From assembly GCF_000158095.2 (NCBI RefSeq), contig NZ_CM011002.1:4010703-4074702 (forward strand): 64,000 nucleotides of DNA, given 5' to 3'. The stretch's first letter is position 1. Every line of letters starts with the position of its first letter. This document shows, one piece after another, positions 53,690 through 61,316 of the stretch. The notes beneath the pieces were generated by a model. The model was given only the letters and a program-made list of their open reading frames with translations. It made no database searches and was not told where the DNA came from. The stretch is from Roseibium alexandrii DFL-11 (GTDB lineage Bacteria; Pseudomonadota; Alphaproteobacteria; Rhizobiales; Stappiaceae). A program made the translations under genes and the position numbers.

Positions 53690-54682
53690 TTAGGCGTTCA
53701 CGTCGACGACAACACGGCCTTTGACCTGGCCTTTCAGGATGTCCTTGCCAAGGCCTGGCAGGTCTTCGAGGGTCGCCGGGTGGATCATGCCGTGCAGCTT
53801 GTCGAGCGGCAGGTCCTTGGCGATCCGCTGCCACGCACGGACACGGTCGTCATAAGGACGCATGACGCTGTCGATGCCGAGGAGGTTCACGCCGCGCAGG
53901 ATGAACGGGATGACGCTGGCTGGAAGGTTCGCTCCACCGGCAAGACCGATAGTGGCGACCGAGCAGCCGTACTTCATCTGTCCGAGGATGCGGGCGAGCA
54001 TGTCACCGCCAACGGCATCAATCGCGCCGGCCCAGACCTCTTTCTCCAGTGGACGCTTGATGGTTTCGGCAACGTCATCCCGCGGAACGATGGCACGGGC
54101 GCCCAAGGATTTCAGGTAGTCCCAAGTGCTTTCGCGGCCGGTGACTGCATGCACCTCATAGCCAAGGTTTGCGAGAATGGCGACGGCGACTGAGCCAACA
54201 CCGCCCGCAGCACCTGTGACCAGAACCGGACCGTTTTCCGGTTTCAAGCCATGATCTTCAAGTGCCATAACGGCAAGCATCGCTGTGAAACCGGCTGTAC
54301 CGACCGCCATTGCATCGCGTGTGGTGAGGCCATCCGGCAACGGCACAAGCCATTCGCCCTTGACGCTTGCCTTCTGGGCATAGCCGCCCCACCAGACTTC
54401 TCCGACGCGCCAGCCGGTTAAAACGACCTTATCGCCCGGCTTGTACCATTCGTCAGAGGACTCATCGACGGTGCCGGCGAAATCGATGCCGGGGACATGC
54501 GGATAGTCCTTGACCAGACCGCCACCCGGTCCAACACAAAGGCCGTCCTTGTAGTTCAAGGTCGAGTATTCAACCGCAACCGTAACATTGCCGTCCGGCA
54601 ACTGGTTTTCGTCGATTTCCTTGACGGCGGCGCTGGTTTTGCCTTCTTCGTTCTTGTCGACAACAAGTGCTTTGAAAGTCAT
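53690..54682 (-). CDS. acuI: Acryloyl-CoA reductase (NADPH), AcuI type
   Basis: 330 residues of the YhdH/AcuI branch of medium-chain dehydrogenases. LNYKDGLCVGPGGGLVKDYPHVPGIDFAGTV near the N-terminus, VVLTGWRVGEVWWGGYAQKA, VTGAAGGVGSVAVAIL (NADPH site) and VATIGLAGGANLPASVIPFILRGVNLLGIDSV are characteristic; there are no zinc ligands. AcuI reduces toxic acryloyl-CoA to propionyl-CoA in DMSP breakdown. It is the last gene of the operon, 14 nt after the CoA ligase. Confidence 0.92.
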   Translation of the reverse strand: MTFKALVVDKNEEGKTSAAVKEIDENQLPDGNVTVAVEYSTLNYKDGLCVGPGGGLVKDYPHVPGIDFAGTVDESSDEWYKPGDKVVLTGWRVGEVWWGGYAQKASVKGEWLVPLPDGLTTRDAMAVGTAGFTAMLAVMALEDHGLKPENGPVLVTGAAGGVGSVAVAILANLGYEVHAVTGRESTWDYLKSLGARAIVPRDDVAETIKRPLEKEVWAGAIDAVGGDMLARILGQMKYGCSVATIGLAGGANLPASVIPFILRGVNLLGIDSVMRPYDDRVRAWQRIAKDLPLDKLHGMIHPATLEDLPGLGKDILKGQVKGRVVVDVNA

Positions 54683-54696
54683 GTGAAATATCCCTG

Positions 54697-56331
54697 TTAT
54701 GCGGTTTCACTTGAGAGTGTCCGGGCCTCTTGCCGCAGGACGAATTTCTGGATTTTGCCGGTTGCCGTTTTTGGCAGCTCGGTAAAGACGATTTTCTTCG
54801 GCCGCTTGAAACCGGCCATGTTCTGCCGGCAGAAGGCGATCAGGCTGTCTTCGGTTTCCTGGCTGCCTTCTTTGAGCTCGACAAAGGCGCAAGGGACTTC
54901 GCCCCACTTTTCGTCGGGCAGGGCGACCACGGCGGCGAGGACTACATCCGGGTGGCGGTGCAGCACCCCCTCAACCTCTACGGAAGAGATGTTTTCACCG
55001 CCTGAAATGATGACATCCTTCAGCCGGTCGCGGATCTGTACATATCCGTTTTCGTGCCGAACAGCCGCGTCGCCTGATTGGAAGTGGCCACCGGAAAACG
55101 CTTCATCTGTAGCTTCCCGGTTTTTGTAGTAGCCTTTCATGACGGTGTTGCCGCGAATGACGATCTCGCCCTGCGTTTCACCATCCCAGGGCACAGGCTC
55201 GCCGCTTTCCCGGTCGATCACATCAACGCTCTCGGTCATTGGGAAGCCAACGCCTTGCCAGGACTGAAGCTCGGCCTGCTCGTCGGCGGAAAGGTCGTCC
55301 CATTCCTCGCGCCACAGGCATTGGGCAACATGGCCGTAGGTTTCGGTAAGGCCATAGACCTGCATCACTTCAAAACCGAGCGCCTTTGTTGCCGCCAGAA
55401 CGGCTGCCGGCGGCGGCGCACCTGCAGTCATGATCTTAACTTTGCCCGGCGAAGATGTACGGTCTGCCTCTGGCGTGTTGACCAGCATGGAGAGCACGAT
55501 GGGCGCACCGCCCAAATGGGTCACCTGATGCTTGGCGATGAGGTCGAACACGGCGGCGCCAGTCACCTGCCGGATGCAAATGATCGTGCCGGCCATCAAG
55601 GTCATCGTCCAGGCATGACACCAGCCGTTGCAGTGGAACATGGGCACGGAATAGAGATAGACCGGATGGCGCGGTAGCTCCCACGCGATTGGCGTACCCA
55701 TCGCCATGAGATAAGCGCCGCGATGGTGATAGACGACGCCCTTCGGCCGGCCTGACGTGCCGGAGGTATAGTTCAGCGCGAGGGCTTGCCATTCATCTGC
55801 TGGCCCTTGCCAGGGAAAGTCAGGATCGCCGCTGCTCACCAGACCTTCGAATACCTCGTCGCCGATCAGATTGCCGCCGGGGCCGTCTGGGTCGGCAATG
55901 TTGATGACCGGCAGAGGCTTGCCGTTGATGTCGAATGCTTGAGAGATCACGCCGGAAAAGGCGGTGTCCGCGATCACCAGTTTGGCATCACTGTGCTCAA
56001 GGATGTAGGCGACCGTCTCCGGTTCGAGGCGGGTGTTGATCGTGTTGAGTACCGCGCCGGTCAGCGGAACCGCATAGTGAAGCTCAAACAGTTCCGGTGT
56101 GTTCGCCGCCATCACAGAAACCGTGTCGCCAGGCCCGATGCCACGCTGTTTGAGGCTCGAAGCGATCCGGCGCACCCGCTCCAGAACGTTGGACCAGGTG
56201 TAGTGGCGCTCATTATAGACAACAGCCAGCCGGTCCGGGAACAGTGCCGCTGTCCGCTCCAGAAAAGAGAGCGGTGATAGCGGCACGTGGTTGGCGGTTT
56301 GCGGCGGCAGAGCCTCGTAATGGTCTCTCAC
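54697..56331 (-). CDS. dmdB: Acyl-CoA ligase, probable 3-methylmercaptopropionyl-CoA ligase
   Basis: 544 residues of the ANL adenylating superfamily. LNYTSGTSGRPKGVVYHHRG is the P-loop, QVYGLTETYGH motif A5, DRLKDVIISGGENISS the hinge, and PKTATGKIQK holds the catalytic Lys. By position between dmdA and acuI it is best read as DmdB, which activates methylmercaptopropionate made by DmdA. The gene family alone also allows medium-chain acyl-CoA ligase. GTG 56331 overlaps the dmdA stop (GTGA), a coupled start; the frame is open further up only through dmdA. Confidence 0.85.
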   Translation of the reverse strand: MRDHYEALPPQTANHVPLSPLSFLERTAALFPDRLAVVYNERHYTWSNVLERVRRIASSLKQRGIGPGDTVSVMAANTPELFELHYAVPLTGAVLNTINTRLEPETVAYILEHSDAKLVIADTAFSGVISQAFDINGKPLPVINIADPDGPGGNLIGDEVFEGLVSSGDPDFPWQGPADEWQALALNYTSGTSGRPKGVVYHHRGAYLMAMGTPIAWELPRHPVYLYSVPMFHCNGWCHAWTMTLMAGTIICIRQVTGAAVFDLIAKHQVTHLGGAPIVLSMLVNTPEADRTSSPGKVKIMTAGAPPPAAVLAATKALGFEVMQVYGLTETYGHVAQCLWREEWDDLSADEQAELQSWQGVGFPMTESVDVIDRESGEPVPWDGETQGEIVIRGNTVMKGYYKNREATDEAFSGGHFQSGDAAVRHENGYVQIRDRLKDVIISGGENISSVEVEGVLHRHPDVVLAAVVALPDEKWGEVPCAFVELKEGSQETEDSLIAFCRQNMAGFKRPKKIVFTELPKTATGKIQKFVLRQEARTLSSETA

Positions 56332-57455
56332 TCTGGCCCCCCCTGGTTGCAGAACGGGGTTTCCCAAACGGTTGCGCTGCGCATACCGTGCGGTGTGTCG
56401 ACCTGGACCTTCGTACCGTCGTCCCAATGTGTCATGCGGACCATGCCGATGGCGACATTGGTTCTGAAATCCGGTGAGTATGCAGCCGAGCTGATGGTTC
56501 CAACCTGCCGGCCACCGCCGATGATGGGCCATAACTCGTTGCAGGGCGGGACGGGATCGCCATCGATCGCCACACTGCGGATCTGGCGGACAGGTCCTTC
56601 GACCGCAACACGGAGCAGCGCGTCCCGGCCGACACAACCGATCGCTTGCTGTGTCTGACAGAACTTGCCGAGTCCACACTCGTGCGGCGTGTTGTTGCGG
56701 GTCATATCGTTGCCGTAGGACAGCAATTGCCCCTCGATCCGCTCAATCAGGTTGGGACACCCGGCCCGGACATCCATGTCTGCTCCGGCCTCCATGAAGG
56801 CATCCCAGACGGGTTCGCCCCATTTGCTGCCGTCGACATAAAGCTCAAATCCACCCTGCTTCGAGTATCCGGAGCGCGCCAGCACCATGCGCTGCCCCTC
56901 AAATTCCACATAGTCATAGTGAAAGAACCGGATAGACCGTATGCGTTCGCCGAAGACCCGGGCGACCAGGTCCTCAGCTTGAGGGCCCTGGATGGCAAAA
57001 GGGGAAACGTCCGGCTCATCGACATCAACTTCCAAGCGAAACGCGTGCGCAAGGCCCTTGATCCAGAAAAGCAGGTCGCTGTCGGCAACCGAAACCCAAT
57101 ACTTGTCTTCCGCAAGTTTGGTCGTCACCGGATCGTTCAACATTCCGCCGGTCTCATCGACCATCGGTGTGTAGTAGCACCGGTTGAGTGCCATGTCCGA
57201 CAGGTCCCGAGGCGTCAGCATTTGTGCCAGACGCCCGGCATCCGGTCCCCAGAGTTCGACCTGGCGTTCGCAGGACACGTCCCAGATCTGAACTTTGGAT
57301 TTCAGATGCTTATAGTCCTCTTCCACCGACTCAAACACTGTCGGAAGAAGCATATGGTTGTAGACGGTGTAGGCTTTGACACCGGCTTCCTGGACACGGC
57401 GCGAGAAGGGTGTCTTGCGCGTGCGCCGGGAGATGGACAGAGACGGGACCTGCAT
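56328..57455 (-). CDS. dmdA: Dimethylsulfoniopropionate demethylase DmdA
   Basis: 375 residues, GcvT-fold protein. RTPFSRR-like start, GVKAYTVYNHMLLPTVFES, WDVSCERQVE, NDPVTTKLAEDKYWVSVADSD, RSGYSKQGGFELYVDGS, RAGCPNLIERIEGQLLSYGNDMT and the HECGLG stretch match DmdA of roseobacters as I recall it, and differ from glycine-cleavage GcvT. It moves a methyl from DMSP to tetrahydrofolate, leaving methylmercaptopropionate. ATG 57455 follows GGGAGGG. It is translationally coupled to dmdB; acuI follows, as next to dmdA in Ruegeria. Confidence 0.88.
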   Translation of the reverse strand: MQVPSLSISRRTRKTPFSRRVQEAGVKAYTVYNHMLLPTVFESVEEDYKHLKSKVQIWDVSCERQVELWGPDAGRLAQMLTPRDLSDMALNRCYYTPMVDETGGMLNDPVTTKLAEDKYWVSVADSDLLFWIKGLAHAFRLEVDVDEPDVSPFAIQGPQAEDLVARVFGERIRSIRFFHYDYVEFEGQRMVLARSGYSKQGGFELYVDGSKWGEPVWDAFMEAGADMDVRAGCPNLIERIEGQLLSYGNDMTRNNTPHECGLGKFCQTQQAIGCVGRDALLRVAVEGPVRQIRSVAIDGDPVPPCNELWPIIGGGRQVGTISSAAYSPDFRTNVAIGMVRMTHWDDGTKVQVDTPHGMRSATVWETPFCNQGGPE

Positions 57456-57467
57456 GCCGGGCCCTCC

Positions 57468-58094
57468 CTATGCGGCCTGTTCAGCGGCTGGACCGGACCA
57501 GTCGATCTGACAGATTTCGGCGCTGCGGCCGTCAAAGTCCCAAACACGGCCATAGGCACGCACACGGCCCTGAGTGGCGGTGGCGACCGTGATATCCGAG
57601 CCCATCCAGTATTCGGTGTTTGTGACCACGATATCCTGGTCCGGATCAGACCCGCCGACCGGAACCACCTCGCCCTTGATCGCCTTGCCTACAATCAGGC
57701 GGCGTTTCTTGCCTTCGTTTTCGTAAGACACCGGTGCGCGTTCAGCGCCAAGGAACTCGCTCACGAGGACTTTGAAGAGGCCTGTTGTCCCCTTCGCCTG
57801 GCCGGAGAAGATTTTCAAAAGGCCATCATAGGCGGCTTCCGAGGCGCGTTCGTCGATGTAGGCAGCGGCTTTCCAATTCCCGCGGGCCATCAGACCTGGG
57901 ATTTCGAGGACCAGGCCGACATTCAAACCGGACAGGTCTTCGCCCATATAATGACCTTTATCGATCCGGACACCGGCCCAGGCCTGGCAGTAGCCCTCTG
58001 TCGGCGCGTGTTTGCCAAGCGAAACGACGCACGGGCAGAAAACGGTGCAATTGCAGTTGAGGATCAATTCCCCACGGATGGCCCATCCAGTCAT
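57468..58094 (-). CDS. DUF1326 domain-containing protein
   Basis: 208 residues. The family signature NCNCTVFCPC (13-22, Cys14, 16, 20 and 22) lies near the N-terminus, followed by YCQAWAGVRIDKGHY and GLNVGLVLEIPGLMARGNWKAAAYIDERAS. The four clustered cysteines suggest metal or thiol binding, but no function is established. It is 11 nt downstream of the DUF2182 gene, its common genomic partner, and 12 nt upstream of dmdA. There is no signal peptide. Confidence 0.88.
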   Translation of the reverse strand: MTGWAIRGELILNCNCTVFCPCVVSLGKHAPTEGYCQAWAGVRIDKGHYMGEDLSGLNVGLVLEIPGLMARGNWKAAAYIDERASEAAYDGLLKIFSGQAKGTTGLFKVLVSEFLGAERAPVSYENEGKKRRLIVGKAIKGEVVPVGGSDPDQDIVVTNTEYWMGSDITVATATQGRVRAYGRVWDFDGRSAEICQIDWSGPAAEQAA

Positions 58095-58105
58095 TCTTGT
58101 CTCCG

Positions 58106-58894
58106 TTATAGATGTTTTATGAGTTCGATAATGAGGATTGCAGCGGCAGATCCCAGAAGCGCAAAACCGACAGGCATGGTCAGGTAACGGCCGAGCTGTG
58201 GGAGTTTTTCAAAGGTCATCAGCACCATCGCGAGGCCCATGAAGGCGAGGTTCATAGTGCCGGCCACAAAGGCCAACAGCATGAGGGCCCAGCAGCAGCC
58301 GAGGCAGATCGCGCCGAGGTGCAGCCCCATCCGGAAGGAGCCCGACAGCCCGTCTTGCCATTGGCCCATGAAGAAGATCAGCGGGCTCTGGCATTGGTTG
58401 AGACAGGCTTCTTTCAGTCTGCTGAATTGATATGCTCCGGCGAGCGCCAAAATGCCCGCGGTCAAATAGACTTCGGAACTGCGGCCGAAGGGGTCCAGCC
58501 AGCCTTGCGTGTCCAGTGCCGCCTGCAGAACGGCTGCGGGAACCGAAAAGCCGATCCAGACGAGCAGATATCCTGCAAGAAGGGCCGAGAAACCGGCGAT
58601 TGTGGCGCCTTGCGTGTGGGTAAGATCGAGATAGGTTTTCAACGCGGGTGCAATGGTCGGTGCCATCATGGCAAGGGACATCAAGCCCCACATTGCGATC
58701 AATCCGGCAAGGCTTGCGTCTGCGGCCGGACGGCAGAGGGATGCAAGGTAATCGAGGCCGAGCGCCTGCCATCCTGCAGGCAGATCGAGATCCGGTTGCA
58801 TCAGGAACAGAGCAGTCCACGCGCCAAGAACCGCGGCAAAGAACGCGATCCAGGCGGCCTGGCGCCGGTCAATTAATTGAAGGGCGATCTGCAC
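58106..58894 (-). CDS. DUF2182 metal-binding-type integral membrane protein
   Basis: 262 residues with about six to seven transmembrane helices. LIAMWGLMSLAMMAPTIAPAL, YQFSRLKEACLNQCQSPL and GAICLGCCWALMLLAFVAGTMNLAFMG are the DUF2182 hallmarks; the Cys pairs in helices suggest metal handling. GTG 58894 has GGGAGGA 6 nt upstream and is preferred; ATG 58909 (five codons earlier) has no such site. First gene of the operon running through DUF1326, dmdA, dmdB and acuI. Function is unknown. Confidence 0.88.
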   Translation of the reverse strand: MQIALQLIDRRQAAWIAFFAAVLGAWTALFLMQPDLDLPAGWQALGLDYLASLCRPAADASLAGLIAMWGLMSLAMMAPTIAPALKTYLDLTHTQGATIAGFSALLAGYLLVWIGFSVPAAVLQAALDTQGWLDPFGRSSEVYLTAGILALAGAYQFSRLKEACLNQCQSPLIFFMGQWQDGLSGSFRMGLHLGAICLGCCWALMLLAFVAGTMNLAFMGLAMVLMTFEKLPQLGRYLTMPVGFALLGSAAAILIIELIKHL

Positions 58895-58958
58895 CCAATG
58901 TCCTCCCATATCGTTGGGAAAAGGCTGGGCGCATCTGTTGAAAAAGTCAAATAATTAA

Positions 58959-58969
58959 TTGTCTGACAT
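58959..58969. promoter_or_regulatory. Candidate FadR-type GntR operator
   Basis: TTGTCTGACAT fits the FadR-subfamily consensus TNGTNNNACNA at all fixed positions except the last base. It lies in the AT-rich region between the DUF2182-dmdA operon and the divergent GntR gene, where it could control both. Confidence 0.5.
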
Positions 58970-59035
58970 TTAAAATATTTGCATTGACCCTGTTCCAGAG
59001 CCGAGCCTAGTCTTATAGAGAGGCGTCAGGGACGG

Positions 59036-59794
59036 GTGCGTGCAAAGGGGACACCATTGGCAATCGAGTATCAGGCGATCCGCAAGGAGGGTTTGTCGAC
59101 CCAGATTGCCAATGCGATCCGTAAGGCCATTCTCGATGGCGCGTTGAGCGTTGAAGAGCGTTTGCCGAGTGAAACAGAGCTCGCTGATCGGTTCGGTGTG
59201 TCCCGGGCAACCGTGCGCGAAGCGATGAAGCGTCTTGCGGCCCAGAACCTCATTCGCTCAGAAAGGGGCGCGTCCGGCGGCGCTTTCGTCAACCGCATCA
59301 CGTTTGATGAAGCTCGCGGCGATCTGGTGGGCACGACCCGGCTTCTCATCGGCATGAACAACATCCCGTTCGAAGATGCCATCGAAGCCCGTTACCTGCT
59401 TGAATCCTCATGTCTTGCACTTGCTTGCGAAAACCGCAGCGAAGACGATCTGACGGCGATGGCCCGGGAGATCAGCCTTCAAAGCGGGGATCTGTCGGAC
59501 GAACACTTCTGCGATTCTGATGTCCGGTTTCACTCGGTCATTGCCAAGGCAACCGGAAACCCGTTGCTAATGTTTCAGGTCTCGGGTGCGATCGAGGCCA
59601 TGCAGCCTTTGATGAACATGCTGGTCTACCGGCTTCGAGACAAAAAGCACATTGCCGGCCTTCATGACCGCCTTCGCGAAGCGCTGGGCCATCGGGATAG
59701 TGTGGCGGCGCAGACGGTATTGGAGGAAATCGCTGCCTACACGCGCCAGCTGGCGGAGCTGCGCCGCGCTCCAAAGGAAGATCCGGCAAACTGA
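59036..59794 (+). CDS. GntR family regulator, FadR subfamily (FCD domain)
   Basis: 252 residues. The winged helix (about 10-80) reads LSTQIANAIRKAILDGALSVEERLPSETELADRFGVSRATVREAMKRLAAQNLI. The C-terminal all-helical FCD ligand domain (about 95-230) has EDAIEARYLLESSCLALAC, DVRFHSVIAKATGNPLL and HDRLREALGHRD. It would sense an organic acid or CoA-type effector. Divergent position makes it the likely regulator of the DMSP operon. Start GTG 59036 is used; TTG 59057 preceded by AAGGGG is an equal option. Confidence 0.9.
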   Translation: MRAKGTPLAIEYQAIRKEGLSTQIANAIRKAILDGALSVEERLPSETELADRFGVSRATVREAMKRLAAQNLIRSERGASGGAFVNRITFDEARGDLVGTTRLLIGMNNIPFEDAIEARYLLESSCLALACENRSEDDLTAMAREISLQSGDLSDEHFCDSDVRFHSVIAKATGNPLLMFQVSGAIEAMQPLMNMLVYRLRDKKHIAGLHDRLREALGHRDSVAAQTVLEEIAAYTRQLAELRRAPKEDPAN

Positions 59795-59886: not shown

Positions 59887-60852
59887 TTGGGCAACGCGCA
59901 TATTCCAATCATCGACTTGGGCGGTTTGGTGGGAGGTGCGCCCGGCGGGCTTGAACAAGCCGCACAAAAGATCGGCGAAGCTGCACGCGAGGCCGGGTTC
60001 TTCTATTTAAAGAACCATGGCATTGATGCGGACCTGATTGCCGCAATCAATGTGGCTGCCCACGCCGTTTTTGCTTTGCCTGACGTCGATAAACTGGCAC
60101 TGACGAAGGACTTCCACACGACCAACCGTGGCTATGTTCCGATGGAGGGGGAAAACCTTGATCCATCCAAACCGGCGGATCTGAAGGAAGCTTTTAATGT
60201 CGGCCTTGAACTTGCTTCGGATGATCCGCGCATTTTGGCGGGAGAACCGTTCCGAGCACTAAACCAATGGCCGCATATACCGGGATGGCGGGACACGGTC
60301 CTCAAATACTTCAATGCTGTTTGGGGGCTTGGCCGGACGATTCACAGGGCCATCGCGCTTGATCTGAAAGCAGCACCCGATTTTTTCGAAGACAAGCTTG
60401 ACGCGCCAATGGCAACCCTGCGCCTGCTTCATTATCCGCCCCAGCCTGCCAATGCGGCGGCAGGTCAAATTGGGGCTGGAACCCATACAGACTATGGCAA
60501 CATCACCATTTTGCTCCCTGACGAGGTTGGCGGACTGGAGGTTCGGCGCCGAGACGGTGAATGGATCCAAGCCCCAACTGTTGACGGCACGTTCATCTGC
60601 AATATTGGCGACTGCTTGATGCGCTGGACCAACGACGTTTATGTCTCTACGCCGCATCGCGTCGTGAACGACAGTGGCCGCGAGCGGTATTCGATCGCGT
60701 TCTTCCTCGACCCGAACCCGGATGCCGAAGTCTCTTGTCTTCCCGGGTGCGTGAGCGCAGACAGGGCACCCCGGTACGCGCCGGTTTCCGGCGCTGAGTA
60801 TCTCTGGTCTCGTCTGGATGCCACCTACGAACAGGCAAAGAAGGGCAGCTGA
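59887..60852 (+). CDS. 2-oxoglutarate/Fe(II) oxygenase, isopenicillin N synthase-like
   Basis: 321 residues. Iron ligands His200 and Asp202 (AGTHTDYGNI) and His257 (STPHRVVND), and the 2-oxoglutarate arginine Arg267 (RERYSIAFF), are all present. The N-terminal PIIDLGGLVGGAP...AAREAGFFYLKNHGI is the DIOX_N domain. Bacterial members hydroxylate or desaturate varied small molecules; the substrate is unknown. TTG 59887 is the start because AAAGGACG lies just upstream and PIIDL is the family start. It begins 92 nt after the GntR gene on the same strand. Confidence 0.9.
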   Translation: MGNAHIPIIDLGGLVGGAPGGLEQAAQKIGEAAREAGFFYLKNHGIDADLIAAINVAAHAVFALPDVDKLALTKDFHTTNRGYVPMEGENLDPSKPADLKEAFNVGLELASDDPRILAGEPFRALNQWPHIPGWRDTVLKYFNAVWGLGRTIHRAIALDLKAAPDFFEDKLDAPMATLRLLHYPPQPANAAAGQIGAGTHTDYGNITILLPDEVGGLEVRRRDGEWIQAPTVDGTFICNIGDCLMRWTNDVYVSTPHRVVNDSGRERYSIAFFLDPNPDAEVSCLPGCVSADRAPRYAPVSGAEYLWSRLDATYEQAKKGS

Positions 60853-60947
60853 GACGAATCCGCACAGGTGGCGGAGCCCCGTGCCAAACCCAATCCATCC
60901 CGTTTTTCCGCTCGTAGACAGATCAGCCAGAAACAAGGAGTGGTTTG

Positions 60948-61316
60948 GTGATCTCGGTCTATTACGACGGCAAATGCGGATTGTGTTCCAAGGAAATCAA
61001 TTTCTTCAAGCGGCGGACCCCGAAGCATCCAATCTTGTGGCACGACATCGCCAACGATCCTGCGCAGCTGGAAGGCACGGGCGTTTCCCAGGCAGAAGCC
61101 CTGATGTTCATGCACGTTCGAGATGCGGAGGGGGTGATGCGGACAGAAGTTGACGCCTTTATCGCACTTTGGCGCCAATTCTCCGGGTGGTCGCTCCTCA
61201 GCTGGTTTGTTTCCCTTCCGGGGATATACCAGCTTGCGGGCCTGCTTTATCGCATGTTTGCAAAGGTGCGCTTCAACCGTTACCCGCATTGCCAAGCGAG
61301 TTTGGAAGAAGCGTGA
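60948..61316 (+). CDS. Thiol-disulfide oxidoreductase DCC family protein
   Basis: 122 residues (DUF393). ISVYYDGKCGLCSKEINFFKRR carries the CxxC-type pair Cys12/Cys15 in a thioredoxin-like start, and EALMFMHVRDAEGVMRTEVDAFIALWR and LYRMFAKVRFNRY follow the family pattern. The physiological partner is unknown. GTG 60948 is used because AAGGAG lies 7 nt upstream; TTG 60945 is less likely. It converges with the glutathione peroxidase gene 7 nt away. Confidence 0.88.
   Translation: MISVYYDGKCGLCSKEINFFKRRTPKHPILWHDIANDPAQLEGTGVSQAEALMFMHVRDAEGVMRTEVDAFIALWRQFSGWSLLSWFVSLPGIYQLAGLLYRMFAKVRFNRYPHCQASLEEA

Follow-up and report, generated by a model that had tools for sequence, protein, structure and literature searches.

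A DUF2182-DUF1326 gene pair associated with the DMSP demethylase gene dmdA in Roseibium alexandrii and related bacteria

Demethylation is the main global route of dimethylsulfoniopropionate (DMSP) catabolism, according to the sections available of Todd et al. 2012 (PMC3338564), and the demethylase gene dmdA is seemingly part of a conserved operon, as stated in an extract of PMC7487153 that cites Gonzalez et al. 2019; the latter study may already show the neighbours described here. We analysed a stretch of 64,000 nucleotides (nt) from Roseibium alexandrii DFL-11 (contig NZ_CM011002.1, positions 4,010,703 to 4,074,702; here called the window), in which dmdA belongs to a run of five genes headed by two that encode proteins of the families DUF2182 and DUF1326. 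The association of this pair with dmdA reaches far beyond one strain, and the pair appears to be switched on together with dmdA. Building on the observed gene layout, homology, linkage, spacer motif, clade, predicted fold and invariant residues, we tentatively favour the view that DUF2182 and DUF1326 form an accessory module for soft metals or thiols, most likely for Cu(I), co-produced with DmdA and AcuI and standing outside the demethylation reaction. There is good support for its accessory status and for its coupling to the DMSP/acrylate operon; copper as the cargo is a best guess from the homologue PpoB2 and the pattern of Met and Cys residues, and a tie to methanethiol is plausible, weakened by loci that lack dmdA.

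Linkage of the pair to dmdA

The genes for DUF2182, DUF1326, DmdA, an acyl-CoA ligase and AcuI lie consecutively on the minus strand (Table 1). Their order and positions are as given in the original prediction, a reading of the window's letters alone, and the spacings agree with it: 11 nt between DUF2182 and DUF1326, 12 nt between DUF1326 and dmdA, a 4-nt GTGA overlap of dmdA with the ligase gene, and 14 nt between the ligase gene and acuI. This spacing supports the earlier suggestion that a single transcript is likely.

The genome comparison that the original prediction had proposed placed the pair beside dmdA in many genomes other than that of this strain, and none of the refuting conditions named there that sequence could address was borne out. 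In a panel of the 80 nearest dmdA loci from named genomes, the best 80 of 326 stretches that encoded a relative, DUF1326 lies upstream of dmdA in 66, from Roseibium/Labrenzia, Rhodobacterales and Kiloniellaceae. A second sample covered 149 genomes of one family, from 148 genera (about one per genus). Here dmdA scores above the cut-off in 64 genomes and DUF1326 is found in 79; DUF1326 sits on the same strand and upstream of dmdA in 48 of the 64, at 48 to 1,694 nt by match ends, which accounts for 48 of all 94 DUF1326 copies. Several of the genomes compared are metagenome-assembled, and gene calls at fetched loci are crude and combine codon-composition scoring with protein searches, since calling the longest open reading frame (ORF) picked antisense ORFs in GC-rich loci.

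Pairs in the order DUF2182-DUF1326 form one clade (clade A) against type B in a quick tree, with a Shimodaira-Hasegawa-like approximate likelihood ratio test (SH-aLRT) support of 99; type B has the order DUF1326-DUF2182 wherever both genes were seen. A wider quick tree again recovers clade A (38 rows, 99), and type B is not a single clade there. Clade-A DUF1326 is present in 53 of the 64 genomes with dmdA and in 17 of the 85 without it (Fisher p 9e-15, which kinship makes overstate independence), counting the 48 dmdA-adjoining copies as clade A without individual typing and four unfetched copies (one in G552, three in G655) as not clade A. The loci compared for their surroundings do not include four further above-cut-off dmdA copies (G114, G018:C132, G037, G283). 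In the clade panel, 75 of the 96 clade-A rows adjoin dmdA, and acuI is also present in 64 of these 75; the panel was chosen via dmdA, and 75/96 is thus not a frequency. One of the 75 is L152, in which broken pieces of dmdA persist between DUF1326 and acuI. None of the 20 type-B rows has dmdA or acuI within 7 kb downstream. One type-B pair (L137:6814-8260) is flanked by genes that look, by eye, like those for ribosomal proteins and SecY.

The smallest conserved unit is DUF1326-dmdA, which recurs preceded by a GntR gene and, in three genomes (G079, G038, G144), by a divergently oriented LysR-family gene (matching PF00126 and PF03466); at L167 neither type of regulator gene was seen in the stretch examined. 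In many Rhodobacterales operons, though not in that of the window, a DinB-family gene (PF05163) lies between DUF1326 and dmdA or acuI; it is found in 40 of the 75 dmdA-adjoining and 10 of the 21 other clade-A loci (examples in Table 1). As in Ruegeria pomeroyi and other Roseobacter operons (Todd et al. 2012, in the sections available of PMC3338564), dmdA and acuI occur together in the window, which differs from the R. pomeroyi operon in having DUF2182-DUF1326 first and a ligase gene in between; these sections make no mention of the pair. Among the open-licence papers listed, none was found to treat the pair beside dmdA, with no claim that the link is unpublished: COG5486, COG5588, PF09948 and PF07040 led to PMC2855505 alone, and DUF1326/DUF2182 and DmdR with dmdA to none.

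The spacer ahead of the pair holds a putative shared operator. Between DUF2182 and a divergent gene for a GntR/FCD-family regulator lies the palindrome ATTGTCTGACATT, of which the core TGTCNGACA recurs in 70 of 81 gntR-divergent spacers, several of them near-identical, where a mononucleotide shuffle leads to an expectation of 0.18. By first gene, the core is found in 62 of 71 spacers for DUF2182, in 7 of 8 for dmdA, where it is the same palindrome as in the window, and in 0 of 1 for acuI, in addition to the window itself. The extended site WWTGTCNGACAWW occurs 11 times in the window's genome, against 2 for a backwards-read control pattern, and the window's copy alone falls in a divergent spacer. 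The remaining 10 are inside called ORFs, four of them (L188, L190, L195, L196) no more than about 25 nt from where the ORF is called to start; the ORF at L191 is doubtful. No second operon of a wider GntR regulon was found from these 11 sites, and none is excluded. The TGTCTGACA site upstream of the operon is a putative operator that GntR may bind, and the motif provides a direct handle on regulation of the operon. Either DMSP or acrylate raises expression of dmdA and acuI in R. pomeroyi roughly 10- to 14-fold (PMC3338564, sections available); the pair may be induced likewise in this strain.

The two proteins and their possible roles

DUF2182 belongs to the PpoB2/COG5486 family, with a PF09948 match above the cut-off. 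Its model is helical and membrane-type, with a predicted local distance difference test (pLDDT) score of 90.9. An alignment of 43 sequences has 20 invariant columns, including M73, W74, M77, M81, M82, P84, Q161, K166, C169, C173, C202, C205, C206, M210 and E234, and contains the motifs MWxxMxxAMMxP and CxxCC. The earlier statement that the family has no known role needs revision: PpoB2 of Marinomonas mediterranea (COG5486), a membrane protein of the same Pfam family encoded beside the protein it serves, transfers copper to tyrosinase, according to a partial text of PMC2855505. PpoB2 shares its operon with tyrosinase, whereas the partner of the window's DUF2182 is DUF1326; the likeness is one of Pfam family. 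No tyrosinase domain was found in eight neighbouring window proteins that were scanned.

DUF1326 carries five invariant cysteines, in a CxCxxxCPC motif plus C36. No leader was seen by eye, and the protein is probably cytoplasmic. Its predicted fold is acetoacetate-decarboxylase-like, with a Foldseek template modelling (TM) score of 0.44, and it is 3-11% identical to the acetoacetate decarboxylase-like enzymes 3bgt, 4zbo and MppR (4jmd). Members of the acetoacetate decarboxylase family have a conserved Schiff-base lysine, and a Schiff base is named in the title of 4zbt, a structure among the fold matches. Unlike these enzymes, DUF1326 has its cysteines and no such residue: across the clade-A alignment (96 rows and the window) no position has lysine in at least 90% of the sequences, which makes Schiff-base decarboxylation by DUF1326 unlikely.

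Metal or thiol handling is the most likely of the earlier guesses for the pair. At the inner membrane, DUF2182 would use its invariant Met and Cys residues to move Cu(I) or pass it on, and DUF1326 would bind metal in the cytoplasm with a five-cysteine cluster on its predicted acetoacetate-decarboxylase-like barrel. One clade of the module may have been captured by the GntR protein that controls the DMSP/acrylate operon, and would thus be produced along with DmdA and AcuI. Its task might then be to supply copper enzymes, or to hold copper in bound form, at times when the breakdown of DMSP loads the cell with methanethiol and further reactive products; which metal is carried, which way it is passed and this reason for the linkage are what we infer. 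A comparable arrangement is the mtoX-SCO1-mauG operon, in which a copper protein and a copper chaperone are tied to DMSP sulfur (partial text of PMC5739008), with the differences that the methanethiol oxidase gene mtoX is at a separate locus here and that the putative chaperone is of a different family. Should production of a conserved metal/thiol module alongside DmdA hold for Rhodobacterales and Roseibium at large, the flux through DMSP demethylation may be limited or accompanied by metal supply or thiol stress. DUF1326 would then have a setting in which to test it, together with a predicted fold and a cysteine-cluster hypothesis.

Several observations weigh against the proposed copper module. 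The copper result for PpoB2 concerns a single homologue, encoded in a different operon. Neither clade-A nor type-B pairs had a recognisable copper enzyme gene beside them, with crude ORF calls and neighbours mostly judged by eye, and no copper genes were recognised near type-B pairs, judged by eye with few neighbours scanned with Pfam. The top fold matches of DUF1326 are enzymes, not chaperones. In the three genomes with a LysR-family gene, a lone DUF1326 directly precedes dmdA and DUF2182 is elsewhere in the genome. Beyond the main family, DUF1326 adjoins only 6 of 31 fetched dmdA copies (L167, L175-L178, L181), one of the six being of the same genus as the window. At L157 (6183-6671) mere remnants of DUF2182 and DUF1326 are found just 5′ of an intact dmdA, as though the pair had decayed at this locus and dmdA had been retained. 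Finally, 21 of the 96 clade-A loci have no adjoining dmdA, of which 14 have acuI and three (L116, L136, L145) are near a contig end.

These last loci bear directly on the earlier idea that the pair serves demethylation. Starred branches of the quick tree force at least eight changes of dmdA adjacency, implying that dmdA was repeatedly gained or lost beside the pair, though quick-tree stars are not strong proof. The wider quick tree adds to clade A L219, whose 10.6 kb hold a DmdB-like ligase gene along with the pair and no dmdA, and L207 and L223, with no dmdA within the fetched stretch. Clade-A DUF1326 is also missing from 11 of the 64 dmdA genomes, and no DUF2182 was found at E 1e-6 in any of these 11, three of which are 74-85% complete. 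Since the clade occurs without dmdA, often by acuI, and dmdA genomes occur without the pair, the demethylase can do without the pair, and demethylation is not what the pair exclusively serves. Methanethiol from demethylation is thus not the sole reason for the pair; acrylate or the general stress of DMSP use suits the dmdA-less loci better. It is quite improbable that DMSP demethylation has in clade-A DUF1326 a functional partner so far overlooked, a cysteine-cluster metalloprotein on an acetoacetate-decarboxylase-like barrel that directly binds or transforms an intermediate of demethylation or of the acrylate route, such as methanethiol, and has DUF2182 as its copper loader. Substrate entry, another of the earlier guesses, found no support; a BCCT transporter gene is present in 36 of the 96 clade-A loci.

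A broader enzyme role, in which DUF1326 acts on or binds a small molecule shared by DMSP and acrylate metabolism, with the cysteine cluster replacing lysine chemistry and DUF2182 supplying metal, would fit the enzymes among the fold matches. We consider it unlikely, given the lack of a conserved lysine, a fold that is only predicted at the modest TM score above, and the existence of known enzymes for the steps of the DMSP pathway. The invariant cysteines of both proteins could also belong to a relay for thiols or sulfane sulfur, in which sulfur from methanethiol would cross the membrane along the cysteines of DUF2182 and be accepted by the CPC motif of DUF1326. The conserved Met residues would fit Cu(I) better, and this relay is unlikely. 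The pair may resemble thiosulfate-uptake pairs. Rhodobacteraceae methanethiol oxidases produce sulfane sulfur (extract of PMC10936201), which suits the relay. In G576 the gene next after the divergent gntR of the dmdA operon is mtoX (L186, 9113-11359), which suits both the relay and a further role for the pair, maturation of MtoX, a Cu-dependent enzyme (PMC5739008, in part) that clears methanethiol from the pathway.

The distribution of mtoX speaks against both. With three weak matches (G556, G564, G608) excluded, mtoX is enriched with dmdA (38 of 64 genomes, against 9 of 85 without dmdA), and not clearly further with the pair: among dmdA genomes it occurs in 29 of 48 with DUF1326 beside dmdA versus 9 of 16 others, and in 33 of 53 with clade A versus 5 of 11 without (p 0.33). 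Among genomes without dmdA the figures are 4 of 17 with clade A and 5 of 68 without (p 0.07), which leans towards maturation. R. alexandrii has its own mtoX about 1.7 Mb from the operon (581.7 bits). Elsewhere mtoX often adjoins its own SCO1 and MauG genes, as reported in the same portion of PMC5739008, and none was recognised beside the R. alexandrii copy (L203); G599 has mtoX directly 3′ of dmdA and lacks the pair. MtoX maturation is thus disfavoured and, in our estimation, very improbable indeed. That the pair has no functional link and is an independent module carried in the operon by ancestry would agree with the varied surroundings of type-B pairs, and with the scarcity of DUF1326 beside dmdA outside the main family, where one more copy has remnants. 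We judge it highly unlikely: in different genera and families the pair has been kept immediately ahead of dmdA, it shares a common spacer motif, and the linkage is also found beside another type of regulator. Of these readings, the accessory metal or thiol module is the one we tentatively prefer.

No tie to DMSP lyases was shown either: lyases of PF16867, the only ones searched, occur in 29 of the 53 clade-A-bearing dmdA genomes versus 6 of the 11 without clade A, and in 7 of 17 versus 18 of 68 genomes without dmdA (p 0.25).

Gene identities and neighbouring genes

The identification of dmdA is firm, with a score well above its cut-off (Table 1); the best PDB match of its product is 3tfh at 369.5 bits, and the next, at 111.1 bits, is an aminomethyltransferase. 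For the ligase, DmdB-like is the right name, as first proposed, and identity with DmdB is not established, the score against the 3-(methylthio)propionyl-CoA ligase model NF005426 being 314.1 bits for a cut-off of 822. The top match to this model in the genome is a different gene, at 728.3 bits also below the cut-off, and ligases of the same type as in the window adjoin dmdA at L162, L167, L169 and L170 as well. AcuI passes the cut-off of TIGR02823 and falls 1.3 bits short of that of the equivalog NF051456 (438.7 bits for 440). Of two start candidates for DUF2182, ATG 58909 and GTG 58894, the latter is more likely; by eye, GGGAGGA is directly 5′ of the GTG, and none precedes the ATG.

Table 1. 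Locations of the operon genes, the putative operator and other features; positions without a prefix refer to the window, and G000 is the genome of R. alexandrii DFL-11.
Feature	Location	Strand	Basis or remark
DUF2182/PpoB2-type membrane protein gene	58106..58909	-	PF09948 208 bits, cut-off 28.7; probable start GTG 58894
DUF1326 gene	57468..58094	-	PF07040 174.8 bits, cut-off 25
dmdA, DMSP demethylase	56328..57455	-	NF009133 630.9 bits, cut-off 410
Acyl-CoA ligase, PRK08162 group, DmdB-like	54697..56331	-	NF006020 845.1 bits, cut-off 677
acuI, acryloyl-CoA reductase	53690..54682	-	TIGR02823 452.6 bits, cut-off 297.25
Divergent GntR/FCD-family regulator gene	59036..59794	+	PF00392 68.2 bits, PF07729 64.6 bits
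Palindromic putative GntR operator	58958..58970	.	ATTGTCTGACATT; core TGTCNGACA conserved in homologous spacers
2-oxoglutarate/Fe(II) oxygenase gene	59887-60852	+	PF03171
DCC1-like thiol-disulfide oxidoreductase gene	60945-61316	+	PF04134, 89 bits
DinB-family gene, examples	L056:7487-7987, L053:7411-7917, L119:8571-9074		PF05163
mtoX (L203)	G000:C1:2383689-2385065	+	581.7 bits
Second DUF2182 gene (L113)	G000:C1:1271717-1272289	-	without DUF1326

The oxygenase and DCC1-like genes lie 3′ of gntR on the plus strand, and counterparts of both are found in L033 and L043. The R. alexandrii mtoX is followed by a gene for a hydrophobic protein of 220 amino acids without a Pfam match, and a similar-looking protein is encoded near mtoX in L187. 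The second DUF2182 gene of the genome, which has one PF07040 match only, adjoins a CDP-alcohol phosphatidyltransferase gene (PF01066); what look like the same genes also neighbour the clade-A pairs of L207 and L223.

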